From assembly GCF_007750395.1 (NCBI RefSeq), contig NZ_CP036281.1, positions 4,301,001 to 4,365,000 of the forward strand: a stretch of 64,000 nucleotides of DNA, given 5' to 3'. Positions 3,001 through 46,464 of the stretch are shown here, one piece after another (the first letter of the stretch is position 1; each line of letters begins with the position of its first letter). The notes below the pieces were generated by a model. That model saw only the letters and a list, made by a program, of their open reading frames with translations. It was not told the origin of the DNA and made no database searches. The position numbers and the translations under genes are program-made. This DNA comes from Polystyrenella longa (GTDB lineage Bacteria > Planctomycetota > Planctomycetia > Planctomycetales > Planctomycetaceae).

Positions 3001-6000
3001 TGTCGCTACCTTCAACCCAGGGTATGAATCAAACACAGTTCGAATACTATGGAAGCGGCCAGGCAGGACTCAGCCTGGTCTTCCGCGATCAGCAACATGA
3101 CCAGGCGGTGACGTTCTGCCTGTTCGCCGCCGTCCTCCTTTTGTTCTGGGCATTTCACCGAGTCACATTGGCCACATTCGCGAAGTTTGTTCTTCTGGCG
3201 TTCTTCGTTCCACTGGCACTATTGTGGCTCGTTCCAGTCATCTGGTTTCCCTGGCTGGTAGGTACTATGTTAGGCGCAGTCGCCGCCTTATGCTTAAAAC
3301 TCGCTTCAATGTGCACCACTTGGTGCTTGGTCCATTGCTGCAGACCAGATTGGAAAAAGTCAGTCGCAACTGGGATGTTAATCGCTCTGGTCTGTAGCAG
3401 TAATGTAATGGCTCAGGAGCAGTCCGGCCCGAATCAATCCGCTCAACAGCAGGTCATCGCGCCCGATACTCAGCAACAGAGAAACGCTCAGCAACGGGCA
3501 AATATTCAACGACAGAAAGAGGTCCAACCGCAGTCCAGCGAGACGATTAAACCCACACCGCCTGTTAATCTACTGACTCGTCCCAATTCGTTTCTGTTTT
3601 TGTATGACAAAGATTACAAACAGACGAATACCGTGATTCTTCGTCCGGATCAACATCGCCGGTTATGGGAAGAGGCTTATCAGTCCGTTCCGGGACAGAA
3701 AGCAAAACTTCCTGAACCGATCGTCGCTTCGGCAGGTTACACAGCGGATCTCTCTCAGGTCGCCGACAACAAGACCTTCAGTTTGACAGGCCGGATTGTC
3801 GTCTTTGCGTTTAGTGATGAATCTGCCGAAGTCCAACTTCCTTTCAAAAACATGACACTCAATTCGGCAACCCTCAACGGAGAACCGGCCGAGCTGGAAT
3901 CGCGACTCAACAAGGAAGAACAGGAATACTGGCTGCACCTGCACGAGCCAGGTATGCAGATCGTCGAAGTCAATCTGCAGATCCCGGTTAAACAACAGGA
4001 ACAGTCAGGACAGTTTAAGGTGAACCTGCTTCCCGTCGCGTCGGGGCTAATGTCAGTAACATTACCGCAAAAAGATTTACAGGTTTCCGTTGGTGGAATA
4101 TTTCTGCCGTTCCGCGAACAGCAACAGGACGCGGCGGTACTTGTCGAACAACCCATCAGCACGGGCGGCGATCTTGAATTCAAATGGCAACCAAAAGCGA
4201 ACCGGGAGGACACCTCGTCTATCGTTCACGCCGAGTCGGTCGTTGATATTCATCTCACTGAGTCCGGAGCAAATATATCTCATCGAACGAACCTGCGTGT
4301 CCGTCGCGGCACGTTGAATCAGGTAACCTTCGCTCTACCGGAAGGGGTGAAGGTTCGTGAGATCACCGGAACCGATGTCGGTGGTTGGTCAATTCAGGAT
4401 CAAGAGGGAGCACAGCAACTTGAGGTCCTCTTCCGTCGAAGCGTGAACAATTCGACCGACCTGAATGTCGAACTGTATCAGCCCGTCACTCCTGGTGATG
4501 TGGAAGGAACGTTGACTCTCAACCGGCTCGGGATCCAAAATTTAAACCGGTCCACCGGGACGATTGCTGTTCATGCACCGCAACATCTTTCATTAAAAAC
4601 GAACCAACTGGAAAACCTGAATCAGATCAACCCGACTGATCTTCCTCACCATCACCAGAACAGCACCGGCCAGAAATTGGCTTTCCGGTACCATTCTGTG
4701 CCTTACGTTCTGAGCCTGTCCGTTTGGCAGAAGGAAACAACGACTGAAGTCGACGCAATGCACTCCGTCTTCATCGAACGTCAGACCATCCAGTACTCTA
4801 GTAAGTTTCACATTAAAATATCAGGAGAACCTTTGCTGCATCTGGAGTTTGAACTGCCTGAGAATTACCTGCCAATGGAAGTTCTCGCGAATCAACTCGA
4901 CGACTGGTACATCGAACGGGAAGAGGGAGTGCTACCCCAGTTGATCCTTGAGTTCACTGAACCTCAACAGGGAGGATTTGAAGTCGCCTTCTCCGGCAAG
5001 ATCCTCAAGGATATTAGCTCGCAGGAGATTTCGCTTTCTGTTCCGAGTGCAGTCGCTATGGATCGCCAACAGAGCGAAGTCGGCGTCTGGTTTTCCGAGT
5101 ACTACTCTCCTCGATTGAAAGAACAGGGAGATTGGAAAACGGAAGCGGTCAATCAACTTCACTCTTCAGTGAAGCAGCAGAGAAAGGAACCCCCTCGTTT
5201 CGCATTTCATTCTCCTCGCGGAATCACAAAACCGATTCAATTTGAAATCAAGCGAACACAGGCCCAGATGACCGCTAACGCTGTAACGGTGACGAACGTA
5301 TCCGACACCTCTCTGGCGTATACCCTCGCCTTGAAATGGTCCATCACGCACGGTGGGGCCGATCAGTTTGCGTTCACCGTTCCTGAATGGCTTCAGGGTA
5401 AACTGGAACTGAATGGTACTGGAATCCGCCAAGCTGTCGAGGAAGAAGCTGAAGAAGGGCGTGTCCGCTGGGTCATTGAGACCCAGAGATTGCATCAAAC
5501 CGAATACTTTCTCACCGCATTGGCCACATTGGAGCTGCCAGCAGAAGGGACCTTCCCCATTCCTATCGTGGAATTCGAAACAGCCCATAAACAACTGGGC
5601 GAAGTTCAGCATGTTCCCTTCGAGCTGTCGCAGAATGATTCGATTGTCGTCAATCAATCTCAGGCTCATGTAAAACAGACTTCCGGCGAGACCACGCCCA
5701 TCCAGAAGGAACAACTCCCCATTATCATCGACGGTCGATTTCTGGATCAGGCCGTGGCAATTCAGCGATTGAATCCATCGACAGAGCAGCCAGTCTGGGA
5801 GATCAACTGGTCAAAACAGTTCCAGAGTGCTCCCGCGCAAGTCTTGCTGGCAGATATCGTCACCACTCTGGCTCGCGATGGTTCTGTCCGCGGACAGGTG
5901 ACCTACACGATGCGAAACAATGCCCGACAGCATCTGGCGATTGAAGTTCCCGAATCCGTGAGGTTACTGTCGATTCTCGTTGGGGGAACACCCACTCGAG

Positions 6001-7631
6001 CCGTCGAAGGCAAAATCAACGGGGCGTCAGTTAAGTTGATCCCGCTTCCTAAACAGTCTGAATTCGGGCTCTCCTACCCGATCCAGGTCACTTTTGAATC
6101 GAATCAGATTACCCAGGGATTCTTACACGAATTCCAGTTCTTCTCTCGAAAGATCGACATTCCCGTACCGCTGGTTGTCGGGCTTTCACAGTCAGAAGAA
6201 TGGGGAATCCCCGTTCTGCATACTCAATGGTCTGTCTTCGCTCCTGAAAACTACGACATCAACTACGAGACAGGAGTCGACAAGACCAATCTCTCCGAAA
6301 GCATCGACTCGAACCGCGCCTATCAACTCGCCGTACTGGAAGAAGCCCGCCTGTACTTGAAATCGATCAAGCAATTTGGTTCTTCGGCTCCACGCAGTTC
6401 CCTTTCCGACGATCGTTTAGGGAAGGATCTGCATGAACTTCAGTCACGCATCCAAAATGCGAAGCAGGAACTGAACCTTGGTTACAAACTAAGTGGTAAA
6501 TTAAGTAGCGACGAGGAAATGCTTCGACAGAAGTTAGACTCTGATCTTGAAAACGTCCAACAGGAATTGCAAACCGAATTGAGTCAGGAAGAGGCGAGCC
6601 AGACAGAAGGGGTTGGGAAAGGATATATAATCAACCGGGACGTCTCACAAAGGAATTACCTTTATGAAATGAACGACAACCTGATTCTTGACAATGGAAT
6701 AAGTGGCGTAGAGCTCGACGGAGTGAATGAATCAGGAATGGGAATTGAGAAAGAATCGGATATCTTTATAGTTCATATCGATCCGACGATAAACCAAGAC
6801 TCACAAAACGGACAACGGCAGGAGGAGCAAAAAAAGGAACAAGAAATATCGAAATCATCGAGCGCACGCGGCACGCAGTCAGGCCGCAGTCTTTCCTCCG
6901 CACAGCAACTGGCGAGAAGCAACAGCTTAGGCAAAAAGTCCAAAGCGGACTCTTCTAAAGAGATTTCCGACTTTACTATCAAAGATAATCTGTCTAAATC
7001 AAACGACAAAGGCGCTGTAACCAACGAGGCAGATGGAACGCTTTATGGTCAATCTCCTTTTCCATCCTATGCCGCTCCGTCTTCTGATCGGAATAGGAAC
7101 GGTGTCGAAAACATACTCGACCTTCCATCTTTGGATTCATGGCCTTCTTCTGGAACGATCGCGGGGTTATCGCAGCCTGGCCAGTTCACGTCTGAGAGTG
7201 CTCCCAGCTCGGAATTGTTAGATGTTACCCTAGGAATCAAACCACCTTCGAGATTCTATTCTAAAAAACAGACGGCAACGCTCTCTCTACCAGTCAGTAT
7301 TCCCCGCCACGGACAGCGTCTCGATTTCATGAAGACCGGTGGTCGGCCCAAACTAATTCTCACCACCCGGTCTGAACGAATCTGGACGACATTGCTCGCC
7401 ATCTTACTTGCGGTGGTGGCTTTGTTGGCAGGAGCAATCTGTTACCGGTATTTCGTATCACGCAGAGAATTCACCACTGGCGGATTGTTGCTCCTCTACC
7501 TAATCGGAGTCGTTTGTCTTCTGTTAGGCACTTCTGAGCTAATGCTGCTGGGGCTTATTCTGCTTTTCCTGGGACTGCTCATCCATCTCGCTCGAAAATC
7601 ATTTCTCCGCTTTCAGCAGACTGTAAACTAG
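1..7631 (+). CDS. Giant beta-rich multi-pass membrane protein (5' end outside window)
   Basis: The reading frame is open to the first base, so the gene very probably starts upstream; the first in-window ATG is at 15. At least 2,538 residues are visible. Long beta-strand-rich extracytoplasmic stretches alternate with hydrophobic clusters at about residues 820-875, 1030-1130 and 2450-2530. At about 1121-1136 a hydrophobic stretch ends in NVMAQEQ, which looks like an internal signal peptide, so the protein may be two fused secreted/membrane proteins with the same plan. Acidic and Gln/Ser-rich linkers lie near 890-1010 and 2130-2400. No family with known function is recognised. It ends 89 bases before comM on the same strand. 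An envelope-anchored surface or scaffold role is inference only. Confidence 0.75.
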   Translation, partial: PVKNMAVVSATINDEPALLGKSETGPVLFLKEEGAHSLKIEYAVPIRPGGSDQVMIFSLPPVASGQMKIILPAGKRLLANTQMLSSTTTEEGQQQYLFPIGNQSDWTLRVTEKNEDAEQDRLFLASSVFTVYARAAEISWTGTTQLEVYGQPLDVVTCSVPSHLEVMSVTSTGLDSWDLQEDPLNPKRTQIKLSYRQGITGKREVTIQGVTTADTEGRWLFPNLVVNSADSQWGEITLGYTAPWKVRVETMEGVRRKIGVGQAESRPSRFDRALDFDVWRPDFELRFMNETTKSSYHAALASVLAIEEQGVSFQSQITLEATGTELFNFEFTLPANWEIESIQSGDQALVWKTLMSEPGEQRIQVPLNTVLLPGGTSSLQIKANLVDWILQDESVITLPQIELAEADLVEGTLVIQAEERFNVQHLNSSALEPIIFGLPNERLSYRFHEGEYDGEISVESKPALVVAQTTSLARLEKKELIANHEVLLDVSHAPIYSLIISVTELEDNNLQFSLAGSNIRVTAELLGEDQAAAQETPGEQSHTWRLGFSQPLQGEHLLTFETRRPRKVDETTFNLPEIRFDHVDRQYGTLLVEAEPEQRIATTAINSVNQPLPEQSLTNIALVNLQFTSRLVHAYSYVRKGYRWSISEERFDRSGLAVAFCDEANITSLLTNTGEFQHELNYKFRAANSQSLLLQFAHQNIELWSALLNGEPVPVRKSEQGFHISLPLDKAPGESQSLRLLYSRPLAELASTSRVEETPPMMYVLDGAGEIQEMIMVSQLWTLNYPSEKSLVESDGSFHPEISLEDWRGHWLNNGLQQIKSDFWWRGLMLLGFMVAVNVLLIVTRMFITNWRGTLLLGSLLAVLGFMVILMTTFDGCDSGVRYSRNLDDFTQGSESIDWNSPNNRNKEIMHLKNLAKGEDENKRQRALKRLGEMDLDLDEIEDASVRHDSEIYEAEDVLIDSDIELAIQGRSKDDPFGVTQTNQPVAKESKQKSRLSVSMSLPSTQGMNQTQFEYYGSGQAGLSLVFRDQQHDQAVTFCLFAAVLLLFWAFHRVTLATFAKFVLLAFFVPLALLWLVPVIWFPWLVGTMLGAVAALCLKLASMCTTWCLVHCCRPDWKKSVATGMLIALVCSSNVMAQEQSGPNQSAQQQVIAPDTQQQRNAQQRANIQRQKEVQPQSSETIKPTPPVNLLTRPNSFLFLYDKDYKQTNTVILRPDQHRRLWEEAYQSVPGQKAKLPEPIVASAGYTADLSQVADNKTFSLTGRIVVFAFSDESAEVQLPFKNMTLNSATLNGEPAELESRLNKEEQEYWLHLHEPGMQIVEVNLQIPVKQQEQSGQFKVNLLPVASGLMSVTLPQKDLQVSVGGIFLPFREQQQDAAVLVEQPISTGGDLEFKWQPKANREDTSSIVHAESVVDIHLTESGANISHRTNLRVRRGTLNQVTFALPEGVKVREITGTDVGGWSIQDQEGAQQLEVLFRRSVNNSTDLNVELYQPVTPGDVEGTLTLNRLGIQNLNRSTGTIAVHAPQHLSLKTNQLENLNQINPTDLPHHHQNSTGQKLAFRYHSVPYVLSLSVWQKETTTEVDAMHSVFIERQTIQYSSKFHIKISGEPLLHLEFELPENYLPMEVLANQLDDWYIEREEGVLPQLILEFTEPQQGGFEVAFSGKILKDISSQEISLSVPSAVAMDRQQSEVGVWFSEYYSPRLKEQGDWKTEAVNQLHSSVKQQRKEPPRFAFHSPRGITKPIQFEIKRTQAQMTANAVTVTNVSDTSLAYTLALKWSITHGGADQFAFTVPEWLQGKLELNGTGIRQAVEEEAEEGRVRWVIETQRLHQTEYFLTALATLELPAEGTFPIPIVEFETAHKQLGEVQHVPFELSQNDSIVVNQSQAHVKQTSGETTPIQKEQLPIIIDGRFLDQAVAIQRLNPSTEQPVWEINWSKQFQSAPAQVLLADIVTTLARDGSVRGQVTYTMRNNARQHLAIEVPESVRLLSILVGGTPTRAVEGKINGASVKLIPLPKQSEFGLSYPIQVTFESNQITQGFLHEFQFFSRKIDIPVPLVVGLSQSEEWGIPVLHTQWSVFAPENYDINYETGVDKTNLSESIDSNRAYQLAVLEEARLYLKSIKQFGSSAPRSSLSDDRLGKDLHELQSRIQNAKQELNLGYKLSGKLSSDEEMLRQKLDSDLENVQQELQTELSQEEASQTEGVGKGYIINRDVSQRNYLYEMNDNLILDNGISGVELDGVNESGMGIEKESDIFIVHIDPTINQDSQNGQRQEEQKKEQEISKSSSARGTQSGRSLSSAQQLARSNSLGKKSKADSSKEISDFTIKDNLSKSNDKGAVTNEADGTLYGQSPFPSYAAPSSDRNRNGVENILDLPSLDSWPSSGTIAGLSQPGQFTSESAPSSELLDVTLGIKPPSRFYSKKQTATLSLPVSIPRHGQRLDFMKTGGRPKLILTTRSERIWTTLLAILLAVVALLAGAICYRYFVSRREFTTGGLLLLYLIGVVCLLLGTSELMLLGLILLFLGLLIHLARKSFLRFQQTVN

Positions 7632-7720
7632 CTATGACTTGATTTTTGTACACGTTTCCCGCAGAATTTAGTGATCACTGGAACACACTGTTCATTCACT
7701 TTATTTCGGGGGAGAAATTC

Positions 7721-8380
7721 ATGCTGGCTAAATTTCACACATATTCTCTGTTTGGAATCGATGCCCTGCCGGTTGAGGTCGAAGTCGATATCTCCCCCGG
7801 GGCTCTTCCGAAAACAATCCTTGTTGGATTGGCCGAAGCGGCTGTTCGAGAAAGCACTCACCGCGTGGAGCGGGCTCTCGTGAACAGCGGTTACACCCGC
7901 CCCGTCGATCGCATCGTAATCAACCTCTCTCCGGCCGACCTTCCCAAGGAAGCTCCCTCTTTCGATTTGCCGATCGCTCTGGGACTCCTCGCCGCCAGTA
8001 GCCAGTTGCAACTGGAACGGTTAAACGAATATGCCTCCGTAGGCGAACTTGCTCTCGACGGCAGCCTTCGCCCAATCAAGGGGGCACTCTCAATCGCCCT
8101 GTCCGCCCGCGAACAGGGAAAGAAAGGTCTACTCGTTCCCGCCGCCAGCGCGAAAGAAGCGGCTGTCGTGGAAGGTCTCGATGTCATTCCAGTGGGGTCT
8201 CTCTCGGAGGCCGTAGGTTTTTACAGCGGGCAAATCGATATCGCCCCCATGGAGTTCAACTGGCAAACCGCCGTGGAACAGAATGGTTATCAACTCGACT
8301 ACGCCGACGTCAAAGGCCAAGAGATGGCCAAACGAGCCTTAACGGTCGCTGCTGCCGGATGCCATCATTTACTCCTGTGA
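7721..8380 (+). pseudogene. comM: comM (YifB) 5' fragment, interrupted by prophage
   Basis: Encodes the N-terminal Lon-S5-like domain of the ComM/YifB Mg-chelatase-like AAA+ ATPase (MLAKFHTYSLFGIDA start, NLSPADLPKE and FDLPIALGLLAAS motifs). In transformable bacteria ComM is a hexameric helicase that promotes branch migration during natural transformation. The start at 7721 follows a strong GGGGGAG ribosome binding site. The native frame runs to GCHH at 8370; two more codons and a TGA come from the prophage end. The Walker A half lies at 45565-46464. Joined across the CT crossover the halves give 511 codons plus stop, the usual length of the family. The fragment lacks the whole ATPase and should be inactive. 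Confidence 0.95.
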
Positions 8381-31099: not shown

Positions 31100-32212
31100 A
31101 TGTCAAAACAATACGTTGATATTTATGGCAATAAACTATTGACCTACATCAGAATGAATGATGGTCAGGGTGGTGAAGTTAATTTGAATCCCACCAAAGT
31201 TGAAAACAATCAGACATGGTTGTTGTACCAATACGACATGCTCACAGGGGGATGTGATTGGATCAGTGAAGCTAATGGAGATTGGAGAGCAGGAAATCCT
31301 GCCCAGACACTAGGTGGTCTTGGTGGACAGAACACATCACCCACACCTCTCTATACTGGTGCCTCTATTCTCAGTGGTGGGCATGATTCCAATATTTCCA
31401 ACCCATCACCCTATTATATCCATGTCTATTCAGCGGGATCTGGTGCCCATCAAGATTCATTCCCAACTGCAACCACTTTGGGAGGTGTTCAATTCACTGA
31501 CTTACAACTAAAACCATCCAGTATTGGTCCAGTCTTAGTTTCAGTCATTGCAGGCAAAGCGATTGTCAAAGTATCTGAAAATGGTTTAGGGCAAGCCTAT
31601 TACACAGGACCAAATACACAAAGATTTGGAGCATTCATTGACATCGTAGGTGGGAAACTCTGGTATTCGACCAACAACTATTTTGGAGGTGGTGGTGGAG
31701 GACTGGTCAGAACCATTTCCAACTACACATCAAACAATTGGGTGGACGATGGAATTGACTACAAATTATCTGATGCAAAAATCAACAACAAAGAGCCTTA
31801 TGGAGCCATCTACGATTACAGAGGACAATGTTGGTGGGCACAGTATCGCTTTGATGATGATCCAAGACTAGGACTGGCTAAACTGTCCATCGATTATCAG
31901 ATCCTAGACTACGACAGAACGAGTCATAACATCGAAAGAATGATGCCTGATGGAAATGGAAATCTGGCCTGCATCATGTCATCCATCAAATATCTGGTTG
32001 ATGGTGGACCAGTGAAACATGATGGTCCTTATGGGGATGGATTTGGAACCAATTACAGGTTTTCATGCATTTTCGATGGCTCTTTTGGTGACTTTTCTTA
32101 TGTGCCACCATTCACCATTCCTGTCTGTGCATTGGGAAATGAGGTCATCTCTATTTATCCATCAAATGTCCAGTCTTCTGTTTCTTCAATTGCTGTTCCA
32201 AATGTGTTTTGA
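31100..32212 (+). CDS. Last tail gene: beta-rich, possible propeller or spike
   Basis: 370 residues. AAGGAG precedes the ATG. Repeating strands with Trp/Tyr-Gly motifs (GGKLWYSTNNYF, YDYRGQCWWAQY, DGNGNLACIM) suggest a beta-propeller-like or spike domain that contacts the host. It ends the rightward structural block and overlaps the convergent sulfotransferase fusion gene by 62 bases. Confidence 0.6.
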   Translation: MSKQYVDIYGNKLLTYIRMNDGQGGEVNLNPTKVENNQTWLLYQYDMLTGGCDWISEANGDWRAGNPAQTLGGLGGQNTSPTPLYTGASILSGGHDSNISNPSPYYIHVYSAGSGAHQDSFPTATTLGGVQFTDLQLKPSSIGPVLVSVIAGKAIVKVSENGLGQAYYTGPNTQRFGAFIDIVGGKLWYSTNNYFGGGGGGLVRTISNYTSNNWVDDGIDYKLSDAKINNKEPYGAIYDYRGQCWWAQYRFDDDPRLGLAKLSIDYQILDYDRTSHNIERMMPDGNGNLACIMSSIKYLVDGGPVKHDGPYGDGFGTNYRFSCIFDGSFGDFSYVPPFTIPVCALGNEVISIYPSNVQSSVSSIAVPNVF

Positions 32213-34139
32213 TCGATGACCAATCATCCACAGAACCACATCGAATAATTGAAACTGAATCATACAGGTCACAATCCTCTCTCAATCCCCATCTCCATTC
32301 CCCTCTGTAAGGCAAACATAAATAGGTATCTTTACCCATTGAACCAGAAAGATGAGCCACAGCAGTATCACAGGTGACCACACATGAGACTGAATTAATC
32401 AAAGCAGCAGTGTCACCAAAGTTTTCAATTTTCGTTTTCTCGATTTCAGATCCTGAATAACCATATTGCAATGATATCCAAGGGACATCCATGGAGGTGA
32501 ACACAGATAAAGGAATTGACCTCTCTGCATCATGCTGATTGTCAGGATTGCCTTTCCAACACAAACCTATTTTTCCCACACCCTCATCATTCACCTCAGG
32601 ATAAGTCAAATAAGGTTGACCAGTCATTTCAATATCCAACACAGCAGGCAATGACAGCAGGGGAATGCAATAGTCATATTCAATCTCTAAGCCACTAGCC
32701 ATATCTCGCTTTGACACACATTCATAATCAGGGAACAGAGGAATCATGGAATCATCCATGTTCAAAATTAAATGGGCATCAGGATATTTATCCAACAATG
32801 GTTGAACAAAACGACAACCCATAAATCCATCCCCTGAACCCTGTTCAAAATAAATCAATACTCTCTTGCCATTCAAACATTCCTCTCCATTCCATATCTT
32901 TCCCAGATAGTTAATCGTTCTGGCTGTCCTCCTATCTGTTTGCAATCGATAGGAATACTCTCTACATCCCTCTTTCCATTTCCCCTGACACATCAAAACC
33001 CTACCCAAAAAATCATGAGATATAGGACTGTCTGTCAATTTGACTGCCTCTTTCAATAATCGTTCTGCCTTTCCATGGTCTCTCTCCCAAACAGCAACTC
33101 TGGCCATCAACTGAAAATAGACATCATCATTCTGAAACTCGTTCTCAATCACCTCCACTGCCTTTTCTACAGGCAATTTGCCCAACACTCTCATCAACAG
33201 ATTGATGTTCCTGTTGTTTCTTCTCAATTCTAAGGCTTTCAGAGCCATTCTAAGGGCCTGATGGTATTTCCCCTCAAGAATCATCAGGGAAGATAAAACA
33301 GAGGCTGTCAGCCAGTCATAGGGCGATTTACGGAACTCTTTTGACAATCTGGCCACATCTCTTTGTGTAAACCAAACTGCAAACAACTTTTCAATGGAAT
33401 AAAACTCATTGGAATTCGCCAATTCTGACCATTGAAACTTGGAATCATTGATTTTCCGATCATAAACAGCCTCTGAATCAACCTGAAATTCCAATGGAAA
33501 ACCTAACTGTTTTGACAGTTCTTTCATCTCTGAGTCAAAACAACTCATGAACTCAGGGTCACCCACAAACTGACTCCATCTCCCAGTCAATTTGCTCTTG
33601 TCCAATGACCAATCATCTTTCTCAGACGAGCCAAAACAAGAATGAGCCACATAAGATGGGGTTTCTGATATCAGATGGTCATAAATCAAATGCTTTGCCT
33701 GTGGAATGATCATCCCACCATTCAATACCTCTTTCATGTATTGTTTCTGCATGGCTATGACTCGTTCATTCACAAAACAACCATATTCATGATTGGTATC
33801 AGGAAATCGACGACACCTGACCAATCTTGATGCAAGCATGTTCTGTGGCGACCTGACCAAGACATAAACAGTTTCAGGTAATGTCATTTTGGCGGCAATA
33901 TTCAAATCAACATCCTCAAAACTGAACAAATTGAGGACTGGCAATGACGAGTCTTTGTCTTTGTCAAAGATGTAAGTTGATTTGGCTGGGATCTCAAATG
34001 AGCCATTAGGTTTCACTGTGCAATTATTGTGATGATGAACCACATTGGGCAATTCCTCAATAATCTTGAATATGAGGGCATGATTACCACTTCTACGTAG
34101 TCCAAATACAAATATGTCTCTCTCTAAATTATATTCCAT
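32151..34139 (-). CDS. Sulfotransferase-like / TPR / family 9-like glycosyltransferase fusion
   Basis: 662 residues. The first ~215 resemble P-loop sulfotransferases: FVFGLRRSGNHALIFK near residue 10 is the sulfate-donor-loop type motif, with VYVLVRSPQNMLASRLVR near 93 in place of the 3'-phosphate binding motif. A TPR-like helical repeat region covers about 255-420. The C-terminal ~230 residues match the TPR-linked GT9/OGT-like glycosyltransferases: KIGLCWKGNPDNQHD, WISLQYG, DTAALINSVSCVVTCDTAVAHLSGSMG. It has phage-like AGA codons and its own start-codon promoter motif. Likely role is decorating host surface sugars or a virion protein (inference). Donor and acceptor are unknown. Confidence 0.75.
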   Translation of the reverse strand: MEYNLERDIFVFGLRRSGNHALIFKIIEELPNVVHHHNNCTVKPNGSFEIPAKSTYIFDKDKDSSLPVLNLFSFEDVDLNIAAKMTLPETVYVLVRSPQNMLASRLVRCRRFPDTNHEYGCFVNERVIAMQKQYMKEVLNGGMIIPQAKHLIYDHLISETPSYVAHSCFGSSEKDDWSLDKSKLTGRWSQFVGDPEFMSCFDSEMKELSKQLGFPLEFQVDSEAVYDRKINDSKFQWSELANSNEFYSIEKLFAVWFTQRDVARLSKEFRKSPYDWLTASVLSSLMILEGKYHQALRMALKALELRRNNRNINLLMRVLGKLPVEKAVEVIENEFQNDDVYFQLMARVAVWERDHGKAERLLKEAVKLTDSPISHDFLGRVLMCQGKWKEGCREYSYRLQTDRRTARTINYLGKIWNGEECLNGKRVLIYFEQGSGDGFMGCRFVQPLLDKYPDAHLILNMDDSMIPLFPDYECVSKRDMASGLEIEYDYCIPLLSLPAVLDIEMTGQPYLTYPEVNDEGVGKIGLCWKGNPDNQHDAERSIPLSVFTSMDVPWISLQYGYSGSEIEKTKIENFGDTAALINSVSCVVTCDTAVAHLSGSMGKDTYLCLPYRGEWRWGLREDCDLYDSVSIIRCGSVDDWSSIKTHLEQQLKKQKTGHLMDK

Positions 34140-34211: not shown

Positions 34212-34228
34212 CACTATATAAAAGTATG
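34212..34228 (+). promoter_or_regulatory. TATATAAA motif on the RHH gene start codon
   Basis: CACTATATAAAAGTATG, ending in the ATG at 34226. Confidence 0.5.
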
Positions 34229-34438
34229 AACAAACCCAAAAAGACATCTGAAAGAACGGGAATCACTAGATTAAGATACACATTCACTCTTAATCCAGTG
34301 GTCATGGAACAACTGAAAGAGTATTGCAAATACAACAATATTTCTTACTCGTATTTATTAGAAGATACGATCAAAAGTCAGTTAGAAGTTTTGAGAGGAA
34401 AGAAGCATAAGAAAAAGAAGAGGAAAAAGAATGATTGA
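34226..34438 (+). CDS. Ribbon-helix-helix-like small DNA-binding protein
   Basis: 70 residues. The strand ITRLRYTFTLNPVVMEQL followed by two helices (KEYCKYNNISYSYLLEDTIKSQL) fits a CopG/Arc-type ribbon-helix-helix; the tail is a run of lysines (KKHKKKKRKK). First gene of a three-gene operon with the RAMP-like protein and overlapping the second gene by 8 bases. It may autoregulate the operon or bind the repeat array downstream as DNA. Confidence 0.6.
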   Translation: MNKPKKTSERTGITRLRYTFTLNPVVMEQLKEYCKYNNISYSYLLEDTIKSQLEVLRGKKHKKKKRKKND

Positions 34439-35006
34439 CATGAAGTTCCTCATCAGAGACGAAAACAACAAGCCTTTTAATACTATTTTTTCCAAAATAC
34501 TCAATGCCACGTTCCAATCATCACATGGTCAATTAATCAAAAGGATTACAGTCAACTGTGATGAGGAATATTTTGACAGCAAGGCTGTGTACTTGGTCAG
34601 CTTTGCATCTTGTGACATGAGAAAAGAATTGTTTAATTTGCTTAATGAAAACAACACTGATTTCACCATCAGAGATGTCAGAATGAATGATGATGATTTG
34701 GATAGCACAGATTATTTTCAGCAAATGTTTGGATACTCTTTTGCGATTAGACAAGCATTTCTTCAAGGACTCAGCATTTCCCTTACCTGTCCTGTTCATT
34801 ATCGAATTGACTTCATTCGAGATGTCTTGTTGAGGGAATTAGAAAAGAAAGAAGGAACCCTGAGTTTTACAGAAACAGAGATTACATTCACCAGTCCGAC
34901 TGGTGAAGAGAACAGGATTGATTTTGAAATTGCACCTGTTGAAAGATATTGCCATCAGTTATCGGAAACTGATAACAATCACCTAATCATATTAATTCCA
35001 GAATAA
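34431..35006 (+). CDS. Unknown protein of the RAMP-like operon
   Basis: 191 residues, alpha/beta, starting behind AGAGGAAAAAGA. Alternating strands and helices (KRITVNCDEEYF, VYLVSFASCD, GLSISLTCPVHYRIDFIRDVLLREL) would suit a ferredoxin-like or RAMP-like fold, but no glycine-rich loop is present and the family is not recognised. Sixteen bases separate it from the RAMP-like gene, so they are co-transcribed. Confidence 0.6.
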   Translation: MIDMKFLIRDENNKPFNTIFSKILNATFQSSHGQLIKRITVNCDEEYFDSKAVYLVSFASCDMRKELFNLLNENNTDFTIRDVRMNDDDLDSTDYFQQMFGYSFAIRQAFLQGLSISLTCPVHYRIDFIRDVLLRELEKKEGTLSFTETEITFTSPTGEENRIDFEIAPVERYCHQLSETDNNHLIILIPE

Positions 35007-35021: not shown

Positions 35022-35642
35022 ATGAGAACACCCATAAATGTAACCATCAAATTAGAAAGCTATATTGCAAAACCATTTTGGCCAGAAACATCAGATGTCA
35101 TCGACATTGAAAAGAAGTCAGGTTTAAATCGATGCAGGACAGAATCTACCAGAGAAACTGCTCTGAAAAGCTATCTAAAAAAAGAACACATGACTCTTGA
35201 AGACTATCAAGAATTGAAAATCAAAGCCAAAAGAGAATGGCATAGATTGGACAATGATAATAATGAATCACCAATCGTGATTCCCAGACACCACCTGGCA
35301 GGCTGCCTAGTTGAAACTGTTTCAACAACTCCTGCTGCTGTCAGAGGCAAATTCAAAACAAATTCATTCAGGCATCATGTCAGAATAACTGATTTTTTAA
35401 CTGAAAAGACCAAGGCAGATGGAGTCTTTGACAGATACGTCAAACTCGAAACATCAAACCAGAGAAATAGACAACGTGATTCATTTATTGAAAATGTTGT
35501 GGCGACTGGAACCATTCAGATTCTGGACCAAGTCAATGAAGAAAGCCTGAAACATTTATTTGCACATGCACTTAGTGAAACAGGCATTGGCTCATCCAGA
35601 AAAATGGGTTATGGGAGAGGTGAAATCCTTAGTTGGAATTAA
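35022..35642 (+). CDS. Cas7-like RAMP-superfamily protein
   Basis: 206 residues. It opens with a strand pattern (INVTIKLESYIAKPF), has IVIPRHHLAGCLVETV near residue 85 where Cas7-type proteins carry an IPGSSLKGALR-like motif, then VRITDFL, ENVVATGTIQIL and finally GIGSSRKMGYGRGEI. The last fits the RAMP glycine-rich loop GxGxxRxxGxGxxx. Cas7-type proteins bind RNA as the backbone of CRISPR effectors. No other cas gene is recognised nearby. Directly after its stop lies the 349-base hexamer-periodic array and then a terminator, so the array should be transcribed with it. Weakly similar structural folds cannot be excluded. Confidence 0.5.
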   Translation: MRTPINVTIKLESYIAKPFWPETSDVIDIEKKSGLNRCRTESTRETALKSYLKKEHMTLEDYQELKIKAKREWHRLDNDNNESPIVIPRHHLAGCLVETVSTTPAAVRGKFKTNSFRHHVRITDFLTEKTKADGVFDRYVKLETSNQRNRQRDSFIENVVATGTIQILDQVNEESLKHLFAHALSETGIGSSRKMGYGRGEILSWN

Positions 35643-35991
35643 ATCATTGATGTCACTGGCACTGACAGTCACTATGGCATTGACGCTGACAGACTCAAAG
35701 CTAATGACATTCACAATCACTATCCAATGACATTGACCTAGCTAATGCCATTCACAATCACACTGACAATGACGCTACCAAAGCTTTTGACAAAGCTTTT
35801 GACAATGACATTACCTATCACGATGACTATGACAGACCAAAGCTACTGACAATCACAGTGACGATGCCTATGACTATGACAGACCAAAGCTAAAAACGGT
35901 CTCAATGACCTTGACTTTGACAATGACAGACCAAAGCTGATGACAATCACTGTCACAATGACTATGACTATGACAATCACCTTGCCTATCT
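35643..35991 (+). repeat. Noncoding hexamer-periodic repeat array with AGCT-anchored units
   Basis: The whole stretch is built of degenerate hexamers of the form TGACNN or TCACNN. Seven AGCT anchors lie at 35699, 35740, 35782, 35794, 35841, 35888 and 35935, so units are 41, 42, 12, 47, 47 and 47 bases. The 15-mer TGACAGACCAAAGCT is exact at 35830, 35877 and 35924 and nearly exact at about 35687. No frame is open across it. It begins at the stop of the RAMP-like gene and ends at an intrinsic terminator, suggesting a repeat-containing RNA of the same transcript. Confidence 0.85.
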
Positions 35992-36016
35992 GAACCCCAT
36001 TTGGGGTTCTTTTTTA
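35992..36016 (+). terminator. Intrinsic terminator after the repeat array
   Basis: GAACCCC ATTT GGGGTTC stem-loop followed by T6. Confidence 0.92.
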
Positions 36017-39908: not shown

Positions 39909-40652
39909 TCACACAAATTGTCTAATCTGATTCGATTGACTGACTTTTGAATAATATTTAAGAAGGATTGTCGGACTGTTTCCAACCATTGTTGCCAAAA
40001 CTGGCACAGGCACACCTGCCAATAATTTATTTGTGATGTATGTATGTCTCAAATCGTAGGCAACACAACTGAATGGCAATTGACTGAATGCTCTTTGCCA
40101 ACCTTTTTCGTTCCATTTTTTGCCAGTGATGAATTCTGAGTTCCAGTCGATTTGTTCCAGTGCAGATTTAGACAAGTAAACCATATCTGATTGACCTGTT
40201 CTTTTTTTGTTTTTGTGTTGTTTGAGGTAGACCAGATCTTTTTGAATGTCAGCAGTTTTGATTGAACAGATTTCAGAGGGTCTCCTGCCAGTAAACAGGA
40301 GTAGATTGAACAATCGGACAAAGTCTGAATCACAGTTCTCATTGACCCAATTGACCTGATTCTGAGAGATTAAGTTTTCTCTACGTTCACCAGCGGGTAT
40401 TTTCAGATTCTGGATGGGATTAATTCTGATCATCTTTTGATTGAATGCCCAGTTGAAACATTGTTTCAGGATGATGAAATAGAGTCTTTTGGTTGACTCA
40501 GACCATCTTTCTTGTTTTGCAAGTTTGAGGATGAGTTTTTCTGAGAGTCTGGAGGGTGGAACATGACCCAGTTCAGACTGTATTTTTCCCAATGGCTTTT
40601 TGTATTGGGGATTCTCTTTTGTGTATTTGTCGATGAGTGTTTTGATAAACAT
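39909..40652 (-). CDS. Tyrosine recombinase/integrase
   Basis: 247 residues. A SAM-like core-binding domain (about 1-85) precedes the catalytic domain: Arg in TGRRPSEI near 123, YDLRHTYIT near 205 (box II arginine with Tyr in place of the first His), VGNSPTILLKYYS near 230 with the nucleophilic Tyr. The usual second His/Trp is Asn here. The phage also has a serine integrase at its right end, so this enzyme is probably not the integrase that produced the comM junctions; dimer resolution or relic are options. AAAGG precedes the ATG. Confidence 0.85.
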   Translation of the reverse strand: MFIKTLIDKYTKENPQYKKPLGKIQSELGHVPPSRLSEKLILKLAKQERWSESTKRLYFIILKQCFNWAFNQKMIRINPIQNLKIPAGERRENLISQNQVNWVNENCDSDFVRLFNLLLFTGRRPSEICSIKTADIQKDLVYLKQHKNKKRTGQSDMVYLSKSALEQIDWNSEFITGKKWNEKGWQRAFSQLPFSCVAYDLRHTYITNKLLAGVPVPVLATMVGNSPTILLKYYSKVSQSNQIRQFV

Positions 40653-43733: not shown

Positions 43734-45500
43734 TCATTTCCAGTTTTTGCTGAATTGGTTGAAATATTGTGTGATATTGTTTCCTGTCTCTGCCACAGAT
43801 CGTGGATTTTTCAGGCTGTCCCATTCTTGTTGCAATCTAAGTTGGACATTCTCATCAGTCAGGTCAATGTTTAGATTCTTAGCCAAGGATCCCAAGAATC
43901 TATTTCGATGCACTGCAACCATCTGAAATTTTACAGCATCAGTGGTTTTGTAGTGGAGGGTGAGACAACATAAGCGATAATGACCACTGACTAGTGTCAA
44001 CATCTTCACATCTTCAATTAGTTCTGAGAACAGTGTTCTAAATTTATGTCTCACTTCAATGTCACCTGCCTTATCTTTATTTCTCATGTAGAAAATCAAT
44101 CTTTTAACATCTTCAACTGTGGGCAGGGATGCTGACATTTCCCCTTTCAGATCCTCTGTTTGTTGTTTGAGTATCCTGACCTCTTTTCTCAGTTTGACCA
44201 CTTTGGGAGTCAGTGTATCGATAAGGTCTATATCCTCTTCAACATTCAGTTTGGTCTGCATCTTTTCCATTAACAGTGTTTTCTTGCCTAGCATTGTTTC
44301 AGCTTCATCTAATCTATCTTGCAAATCAGATGGGATAGTCTGAGGTGAAATATCACTGATAGAAATGTCTTTCATTGTGTAGAGAATTCCCTCTTCCAAA
44401 TATTGGTACGGGAATGAGACATATTTTGAGTTTTTAATTTTATTGACTGCCCCTGATGACACCAGTTGTTTTCCAGATGACTTGGTTCCTTTGTTTACGA
44501 TTTGCATATTAGAGCCATCGATGGCACATCTTATCTTTCCCTGAAAGAGGTTGGTGATTCTGCCAGAGAGGTCACGTTTTCTGCCAGGAGTCTTTTTCAT
44601 TTTGACCAGACTTTGCAGCCTGTAGAAATCAGCCTCTTTGATTGCCGATGGATAATAGTTCTGAATTGCATCTCCGATGTTTTGTCTGTGTTCAACAGTT
44701 AGATATTTAGAGCCTTTTTGAAATTGCATTTCTCCGATCAGAGAACGATTGCTGACAATTTTGTTGATGGTTGATTTGGACCAGAATAGAGGACCTGATT
44801 TTTTCTTACTTCTATTGGTAATGATGACAGGCACATTTTCTTTGTTGAACATACTGGCAATTGTCACTGGTCCATGATTATCCAGATACAGGTGACAGAT
44901 TCTCCTGACAATGGAGACATGCTCATTTAATTCATAGGCTCTTTTTTCATCATTGTAGGTCAACCAAAATGGGCATCGATGTCTGACTCTGTTTCCATCC
45001 ATTGCCTTTTCACGTTTGTATTGCCAGACCTCTTTCAATCGGACAGATTTGACCTCTGATTCTTCATTGGATCTGCAAAGAGTCATCACCATGGACATCA
45101 GACACATGGGATCTCTGTTCAATGTTTCTTCATCGATGATTTGTTCAGAGGGTGAAACAGCAACAATTCTGATCCCAGAAGAAACGATACTCAACAGCAG
45201 TGATACAGCTGTCATCGGTTTTTGCCTGCTGATTCTGTCCAGTGATTCAACCACCAGTGCAGATCCATGTGGGATTTGACCTGACTCACAGAGTTTGATG
45301 AAAAGAGCGAGTGACCCACCTTCTTTGAGATTGTCACCACGATAGCCTGACAATCCTCTATCTGGTTTCAGAGTGGTATCCAAAACGTAATCATTCGCCT
45401 CACACCACCTCTTAGTCAGTTTCATTTGTCGATTGAGGCTATTCCCTTTTTCCTGTTCCAAGGTAGAGAATCTTGCATAACTGTAGGCCGTTTTGGACAT
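43734..45500 (-). CDS. Large serine recombinase (phage integrase)
   Basis: 588 residues. Resolvase-type catalytic domain with nucleophilic serine in YARFSTLEQ (about residue 12), DRGLSGYRG near 50 and ESLDRISRQ near 88. Recombinase domain about 170-270 (NKIVSNRSLIGEMQF), a reduced zinc-ribbon region near 310-340 in which only one Cys is evident, and a coiled coil about 390-455 (DRLDEAETMLGKKTLLMEKMQ...). This is the architecture of phiC31/A118-type integrases. The gene starts 80 bases from the crossover at attR, as usual for these enzymes, and should have produced the comM insertion. Confidence 0.93.
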   Translation of the reverse strand: MSKTAYSYARFSTLEQEKGNSLNRQMKLTKRWCEANDYVLDTTLKPDRGLSGYRGDNLKEGGSLALFIKLCESGQIPHGSALVVESLDRISRQKPMTAVSLLLSIVSSGIRIVAVSPSEQIIDEETLNRDPMCLMSMVMTLCRSNEESEVKSVRLKEVWQYKREKAMDGNRVRHRCPFWLTYNDEKRAYELNEHVSIVRRICHLYLDNHGPVTIASMFNKENVPVIITNRSKKKSGPLFWSKSTINKIVSNRSLIGEMQFQKGSKYLTVEHRQNIGDAIQNYYPSAIKEADFYRLQSLVKMKKTPGRKRDLSGRITNLFQGKIRCAIDGSNMQIVNKGTKSSGKQLVSSGAVNKIKNSKYVSFPYQYLEEGILYTMKDISISDISPQTIPSDLQDRLDEAETMLGKKTLLMEKMQTKLNVEEDIDLIDTLTPKVVKLRKEVRILKQQTEDLKGEMSASLPTVEDVKRLIFYMRNKDKAGDIEVRHKFRTLFSELIEDVKMLTLVSGHYRLCCLTLHYKTTDAVKFQMVAVHRNRFLGSLAKNLNIDLTDENVQLRLQQEWDSLKNPRSVAETGNNITQYFNQFSKNWK

Positions 45501-45530: not shown

Positions 45531-45553
45531 GGGTCTGAGAGTCATTATACCAG

Positions 45554-45600
45554 TGACAGGACAAATGGAAAGTCATTTGCTGATGATTGGCTCTCCCGGT
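45554..45600 (+). other. attR (serine integrase hybrid site)
   Basis: The phage arm TGACAGGACAAATGGAAA (45554-45571) is the imperfect reverse complement (16 of 18) of the left arm at 8381-8398. TCATTT (45573-45578) and CT (45580-45581) are shared with attL. To the right comM resumes in frame. Confidence 0.8.
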
Positions 45601-46464
45601 ACTGGCAAGACATTGCTCGCCTCACGAATCGGCACCATTCTGCCGGAGTTGCAATTAAAGGAAAGCCTGGAGACCACTCGAATCTATTCGGCCATGGGAC
45701 GGCTCAGCAATGGCGAATCGCTGATGATGCAGCGTCCCTTTCGCTCCCCCCATCATACCATCAGCGAAGCGGGGCTTGTCGGCGGCGGAAGCACTCCCGC
45801 CCCCGGAGAGATTTCGCTGGCACATCATGGATTACTTTTTCTGGATGAACTGCCTGAGTTCAACCGGCGCACGCTGGAAGTCCTTCGACAACCCCTCGAA
45901 GAAAACTGCGTCACGATCTCGCGAGCTATTGGATCTGTGACCTTTCCCGCCCGATTGATGCTTGTCGCGGCGATGAACCCGTGCCCCTGTGGGTATCGTG
46001 GGGATACACGCCGTCGGTGTAGTTGTAACCCGACTCAGATCGAAAGGTACGTCAGCCGTATCAGCGGCCCGCTTCTCGACCGCATCGATATCCACATCGA
46101 AGTCCCGCCTGTTCCTTTCCGGGAACTTTCCAATCAGGAGGACGGAACTAACAGCGAAACCATTCGTGAACAGGTTCTGGAAGCGCGTGAATTCCAGACA
46201 CATCGCTTCAAAGAAACTCCCGAGATGCTCAACGGAAAAATGGCGCCGCGCGAAATCAGGCGTCATTGCAAATTGAAACCGGAAGCGGAGTCACTGCTGA
46301 AACAAGCGGTCGAACATATGGGCCTTTCGGCCCGTGCTCACGACAAAATTCTCCGCATCAGCCGCACCATCGCTGATCTGGCCCGTGCGGACCAGATCGA
46401 ATCTCATCACTTATCAGAAGCCATCAACTACCGCACACTCGACCGGAATTACTGGGGAACGTAG
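45565..46464 (+). pseudogene. comM: comM (YifB) 3' fragment
   Basis: Carries the whole Mg-chelatase-type AAA+ part: Walker A GSPGTGKT, RPFRSPHHTISEAGLVGGG, Walker B GLLFLDELPEF, and the Cys-rich CPCGYRGD...CSC segment plus C-terminal helical domain. From 45579 on it is the natural continuation of the 5' fragment. An ATG at 45565 or GTG at 45553, both in phage DNA, could start a truncated ATPase, but the ribosome site is weak. Excision restores the gene. Confidence 0.93.

Follow-up and report, generated by a model that had tools for sequence, protein, structure and literature searches.

Prophage and operon

The window analysed here is a 64-kb stretch that forms part of a 6.1-Mb bacterial chromosome and contains a comM/yifB-type gene in two halves (7646-8380 and 45553-46464). 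Terminase, portal, capsid, tail, integrase and serine recombinase genes stand between these halves, which places the array described below in a prophage. In other bacteria comM serves as an insertion site of mobile elements. The serine recombinase gene (43734-45500) lies at the right end of the prophage, and a second recombinase type is represented by a tyrosine-integrase-like ORF on the reverse strand (39909-40652). A 662-aa ORF, also on the reverse strand (32151-34139) and by appearance a sulfotransferase/TPR/glycosyltransferase-type fusion, is located between the tail genes and a forward-strand operon in which a ribbon-helix-helix (RHH) regulator is followed by a 191-aa protein, a 206-aa protein, the array and an intrinsic terminator. 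The features of the operon, with the evidence for each, are as follows.

34226-34438, forward strand: RHH (Arc-like) regulator, probably the first gene of the operon (PHROG 3180, E 2.7e-7)
34431-35006, forward strand: 191-aa protein, a probable operon mate; no relative found, and not kept beside other arrays
35022-35642, forward strand: 206-aa protein with a predicted Cas7/Csm3 fold (RAMP superfamily) and a C-terminal glycine-rich loop, GIGSSRKMGYGRGE (AlphaFold2, Foldseek/VIA-align, weak profile matches, 16 homologues)
35644-35991, forward strand: non-coding hexamer array, consensus T(G/C)ACNN, about 58 units, with one-base slips at AGCT-type blocks (autocorrelation, hexamer profile, stops)
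35795-35935, forward strand: local tandem duplication, three exact 47-nt AGCT-to-AGCT intervals (35794, 35841, 35888, 35935; TRF period 47)
35992-36015, forward strand: perfect intrinsic terminator, GAACCCCATTTGGGGTTC-TTTTTT, directly 3' of the array (sequence)

Given this order and the terminator that follows the array immediately, the simplest view of the array is as a 3' untranslated region of the operon. The 191-aa protein has no relative in phage records or IMG/VR.

Periodicity of the array

The sequence-only reading had described a 6-base rhythm with AGCT anchors and had predicted autocorrelation peaks at 6 and 47. Both were found when the autocorrelation of 35643-35991 was compared with that of 1000 dinucleotide shuffles: identity at lag 6 was 0.499 against 0.266 in the shuffles (z 9.8), and lags 12 and 47 gave z scores of 8.5 and 8.9. 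The seven AGCT anchors are all where they had been placed (1.1 would be expected), the final three intervals between them are exactly 47 bases, and TGACAGACCAAAGCT occurs in three unchanged copies that start at 35830, 35877 and 35924. Parsing the array gives 59 units, in keeping with the earlier count of about 58, but the claim that every unit is TGAC or TCAC was too strict, as 25 units are TGAC, 11 TCAC and 3 TGCC and the remainder are degenerate. The register slips by one base at each AGCT-type block, and the 47-base interval is therefore 8x6-1. The contrast drawn earlier with CRISPR arrays also stands: the hexamer register is continuous, variants of one hexamer fill the array, and there are no spacers. 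No Rfam family overlaps the array at E<=0.5.

A Cas7-like protein

The AlphaFold2 model of the 206-aa protein, built with 12 homologues, has a pLDDT of 90.6. Its best Foldseek matches in the PDB are Csm3 chains (E 6e-6), VIA-align superposes 142 residues with Z 13.3 and an rmsd of 3.6, and the best 50 VIA-align entries are all type III or VII CRISPR effectors. The model of a second member, L166, built with 16 homologues, agrees (pLDDT 90.9, Z 12.5). Identity to Csm3/Cas7 structures is 11-20%, and sequence profiles match the family below their curated cut-offs, with weak Cas6, Cmr6 and RAMP matches: the best is PADLOC Cas6 (E 0.0022), Pfam RAMPs reaches E 0.023 in 3 of 12 members, and NCBIfam cmr6 scores 13.3 bits against a cut-off of 51. 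A PDB sequence search with the protein returned nothing beyond weak Cmr6 tails. The stretch aligned to Cmr6 is the glycine-rich C-terminal loop known from RAMP proteins, G-x-G/S-x-x-R-K/R-M/L-G-x-G-R, which is present in nearly all of the 16 aligned members. Many of the invariant residues of the family are Arg or Lys (R117, R138, R148, R193, R199), and none is His. The RAMP-like label given to the protein earlier agrees with the Cas7/Csm3 fold predicted by these models, and we class the protein as a new branch of the Cas7/RAMP superfamily. Two more viral proteins in BFVD, A0A8S5R8I9 and A0A8S5R426, match the fold at E 1e-7, and one of them is annotated as a Cas-associated RAMP.

Association of gene and array

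Homologues were searched for with the protein only, so the arrays did not bias the search. Sixteen relatives were found, 15 of them at IMG/VR viral loci and one (L135) in a Planctomycetota bin. A period-6 stretch lies beside the gene, on its sense strand, at all 17 loci including the window; in every one of the relatives it lies within 46 nt of the gene, either 5' or 3' of it or on both sides. A leave-one-out profile, trained each time on the other loci, recovered 16 of the 17 arrays on the sense strand and within 46 nt of the start or stop codon. The seventeenth, the AT-rich array of the window, was recovered with a profile from the L149 array alone, for which 35650-35988 is the best match of the 64 kb on both strands (81.7 bits, with a runner-up of 22.8 bits), and a two-state profile scan of the 64 kb found a single array, on the forward strand. 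As L163/L164, L144/L146 and L155/L156 are related pairs, the loci represent about 14 independent cases. The repeat, its register and its sense-strand placement beside the gene recur in every member of the family.

Except within the related phage pairs, the loci have no neighbour gene in common, which makes this a two-part module rather than a CRISPR locus; no further cas gene was found among the neighbours. Protein searches of 50,697 phage records and 72,556 plasmids gave no homologue, and about 390 genomes of the phylum together with 397 genomes of the class of L135 yielded two loci that were already known and nothing more. Searching IMG/VR for TGACNN runs returned only dipeptide-coding, single-register repeats, none like the array of the window, and the degenerate pattern in 170 genomes of the family matched only near-perfect simple hexamer repeats apart from this array. 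Across whole contigs, degenerate matches lie on the strand of the gene with few exceptions (e.g. 138:0, 102:1, 59:1 and 40:0), and a backward-read control was near zero. At L135, a near-perfect palindrome, TACACGATCGTGTA (248-270), is found just upstream of array and gene and is likely an operator.

An iteron, partition or operator array bound in double-stranded form, for example by the RHH protein, would be made of short tandem intergenic repeats like those seen here, and RHH proteins such as omega do bind arrays of short repeats. Such an element is nevertheless highly improbable, as the orientation of the array follows the gene, a period of 6 bp is out of step with the helical repeat of DNA, and the arrays accompany a Cas7-fold gene, from a family of RNA binders. 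The replication iteron proposed in the sequence-only reading finds no link to replication genes at arrays that are always in sense and within 46 nt of the gene. The RHH protein (34226-34438), which had been put forward as a ligand, is unlikely to be one, because among the loci studied its gene occurs in the window only and is not conserved beside the arrays.

Hexamer consensus, constraint and folding

An EM model that allows slips, fitted separately to each of 20 arrays, gave one consensus in all of them, YGNCNN, over G+C contents from low to 70%. Information is high at positions 1, 2 and 4 and almost nil at 5 and 6; the version found in the window is T-(G/C)-A-C-N-N. Array lengths range from about 75 to 1240 nt. 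Register slips are common, with a preferred size within one phage: those of the +1 type (a 5-nt unit) make up 16/16 in L143 and 4/5 in the window. The 16 uniform slips of the 1.2-kb L143 array (5629-6863) are irregularly spaced and so are not accounted for by duplication of one slip-bearing block. In the L149 array, T-tracts recur every 73-81 nt (4673, 4746, 4827, 4903 and 4984) in a common context, GACGAYG-TNCTTTTT; these tracts and the AGCT blocks of the window may be separators of multi-hexamer blocks.

A protein-coding dipeptide repeat, intact or decayed, finds some support in those GC-rich arrays that have at least one open frame, and in the gene-adjacent array of L163/L164, which lies in an open frame that runs from an ATG to the start of the gene. 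A coding origin is hardly credible all the same: stops occur in all three forward frames in the window (5, 15 and 11), L143 and L149, the slips of register are many, the open frame varies by locus, and the free bases are hexamer positions 5 and 6 at every locus, whatever the frame. The decayed repeat protein of the sequence-only reading finds no support either, given the same stops and frame slips and constrained positions that ignore codon logic.

The sister phages L163 and L164 have flanks that are 95-98.6% identical and four corresponding arrays, whose length differences are at or close to multiples of six. Differences at positions 1 to 6 number 7/146, 2/146, 11/147, 2/146, 40/145 and 35/145, or 22/585 at positions 1-4 against 75/290 at positions 5-6; as the alignment of repeats may pair units that are not orthologous, these figures measure the tolerance of the grid more than they count mutations. 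Runs of gaps are multiples of 6 in 10 of 13 cases in the arrays, and multiples of 3 in 5 of 7 cases in the flanks. On this sequence comparison, hexamer positions 1-4 are under constraint.

The fast change of the free bases between the sister phages is also what might be seen if the two free bases of each hexamer, or whole stretches, paired with a target nucleic acid in the manner of a CRISPR guide, and Cas7 effectors pair their guides in 6-nt steps. A guide is very improbable here, however. With 4 of 6 bases constrained, little guide content is left; no discontinuous or contiguous match above chance was found within the 64-kb window, and there is no other Cas gene nearby.

In most arrays folding is no stronger than in shuffled sequences, and in many it is weaker, whereas 17 of the 18 complementary strands fold better. 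Weak folding of this kind is in keeping with an RNA that stays single-stranded and accessible to a protein. It fits poorly with a type III toxin-antitoxin-like pair, in which the Cas7-like protein would be an RNase and the repeat RNA its antitoxin. A repeat RNA does adjoin a small protein gene, the local 47-nt units are within the size range of ToxI-type repeats, and Csm3 proteins are capable of cutting RNA; ToxI repeats, however, are pseudoknots, whereas no structure is conserved among these arrays, most of which fold more weakly than shuffled sequences. The unit conserved in the family is 6 nt, the 47-nt unit being local to the phage of the window, and arrays stand 3' or 5' of the gene indifferently. 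With the family lacking an invariant His and the predicted fold being that of Csm3/Cas7 and not ToxN, we regard such a pair as improbable.

Comparison with known systems

Among known systems, the Cas7-like gene with its hexamer array resembles the Csm3/Cas7 backbone subunits of type III and VII CRISPR effectors in the full-length predicted fold, the glycine-rich C-terminal loop and the expected 6-nt step. It differs in that the protein is encoded by a phage on its own, with no other cas gene nearby, and in that the putative RNA partner carries a fixed periodic hexamer instead of a spacer. To our knowledge, class 1 CRISPR backbones are known solely within guide complexes. As in the RNA anti-CRISPRs (Racr; PMC10651486), a phage RNA is the putative carrier of a Cas7-type filament. 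Racr, however, mimics a CRISPR repeat and relies on the Cas7 of the host, whereas the Cas7-like protein of the present pair is a phage product and its RNA has no apparent likeness to a CRISPR repeat.

ToxIN/CptIN type III toxin-antitoxin systems also join a tandem-repeat RNA to one small protein gene, but with another protein fold and structured repeats of tens of nucleotides, where the present arrays have unstructured 6-nt units and lie on either side of the gene. Solitary or mini CRISPR arrays in viruses are similar in placing repetitive RNA-coding DNA by a Cas-like gene; the hexamer arrays have neither the repeat-spacer plan nor spacers nor a palindromic repeat. Omega/ParB-type arrays of RHH-bound heptads share the serial arrangement of short tandem units, while the hexamer arrays are always on the sense strand beside a Cas7-fold gene, and the RHH gene is not conserved. 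The open-access papers searched contain no description of a Cas7 that is solitary or phage-borne and accompanied by hexamer repeats. A recent review regards it as an enigma that viruses have taken up CRISPR RNA segments but apparently no Cas proteins as inhibitors (PMC11656645); in the phage family described here, a solitary protein of predicted Cas7 fold comes with a putative RNA of its own, and the period of that RNA is the same as the footprint of Cas7.

Proposed function

Three identities had been offered for the array in the sequence-only reading, and only the binding platform, taken as an RNA, is strongly favoured; the iteron and the decayed protein are not. The RAMP-like partner that it named for this RNA has a predicted Cas7/Csm3 fold, and its gene accompanies such an array at 17/17 loci. 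We propose that protein and array probably make up a phage ribonucleoprotein of two components, with subunits of the Cas7-like protein polymerising along a hexamer-periodic RNA of its own, one to each hexamer. The mRNA of the neighbouring gene would include the array as an untranslated part, and the Cas7/Csm3-fold protein would bind this part as RNA, each subunit reading Y1, G2 and C4 and ignoring the free bases 5 and 6. One subunit per hexamer would be the simplest explanation for an operon of a Cas7-fold protein that ends or begins with a period-6 RNA. The RNA binding, the 6-nt footprint and the filament are drawn by analogy from known Cas7 proteins, among which Cas7f takes up 6 nt per subunit and assembles into long filaments on an RNA of phage origin (PMC10651486). 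The range of array lengths does not point to an assembly of defined size.

Sequence matters little to RNA binding by the known Cas7 proteins, so reading of the hexamer would be a new property. If the proposal is true, Cas7 would read RNA sequence without guides, and the pair would offer a simple system for studying the growth of Cas7 filaments as well as a natural sequence-specific Cas7. The array would represent a new phage RNA element, one that searches could recognise by its hexamer grammar, and the mechanism would possibly be a new one of counter-defence or RNA control. More broadly, we lean towards an undescribed class of ribonucleoproteins, solitary, Cas7-like and hexamer-recognising, that would form long filaments on dedicated RNAs of up to 1.2 kb and so mark, protect or hide transcripts or disarm RNA-targeting immunity.

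As to its role, the protein may coat those transcripts of its phage that bear an array, among them the mRNA for the protein itself, and thereby protect or control them, a suggestion that we hold tentatively. Counter-defence is the next candidate role but a rather unlikely one. Here the Cas7-like filament on the RNA of the phage would be a decoy, sequestering subunits of a host CRISPR effector or of another RNA-targeting defence, and would differ from the coating of transcripts in role alone, the protein-RNA biochemistry being the same. RNA anti-CRISPRs act through an aberrant Cas7f filament (PMC10651486), Csm3 is the nearest fold, and the MAG of L135 has Cas1 and RAMP genes. The host genome of the window, however, has neither Cas1 nor any PF03787 RAMP protein, which for this phage weakens the case for a decoy against the CRISPR of its own host. 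The array has no apparent likeness to a CRISPR repeat and matches no Rfam family, and no anti-CRISPR neighbour was identified. In some phages, arrays also stand on the same strand elsewhere: G808 has them at 49.5, 54.9, 55.5 and 69.8 kb with the gene near 55.8 kb, and G805/G806 have four within 3 kb. This suggests that several transcripts carry the tag, an arrangement that a single decoy explains less well.
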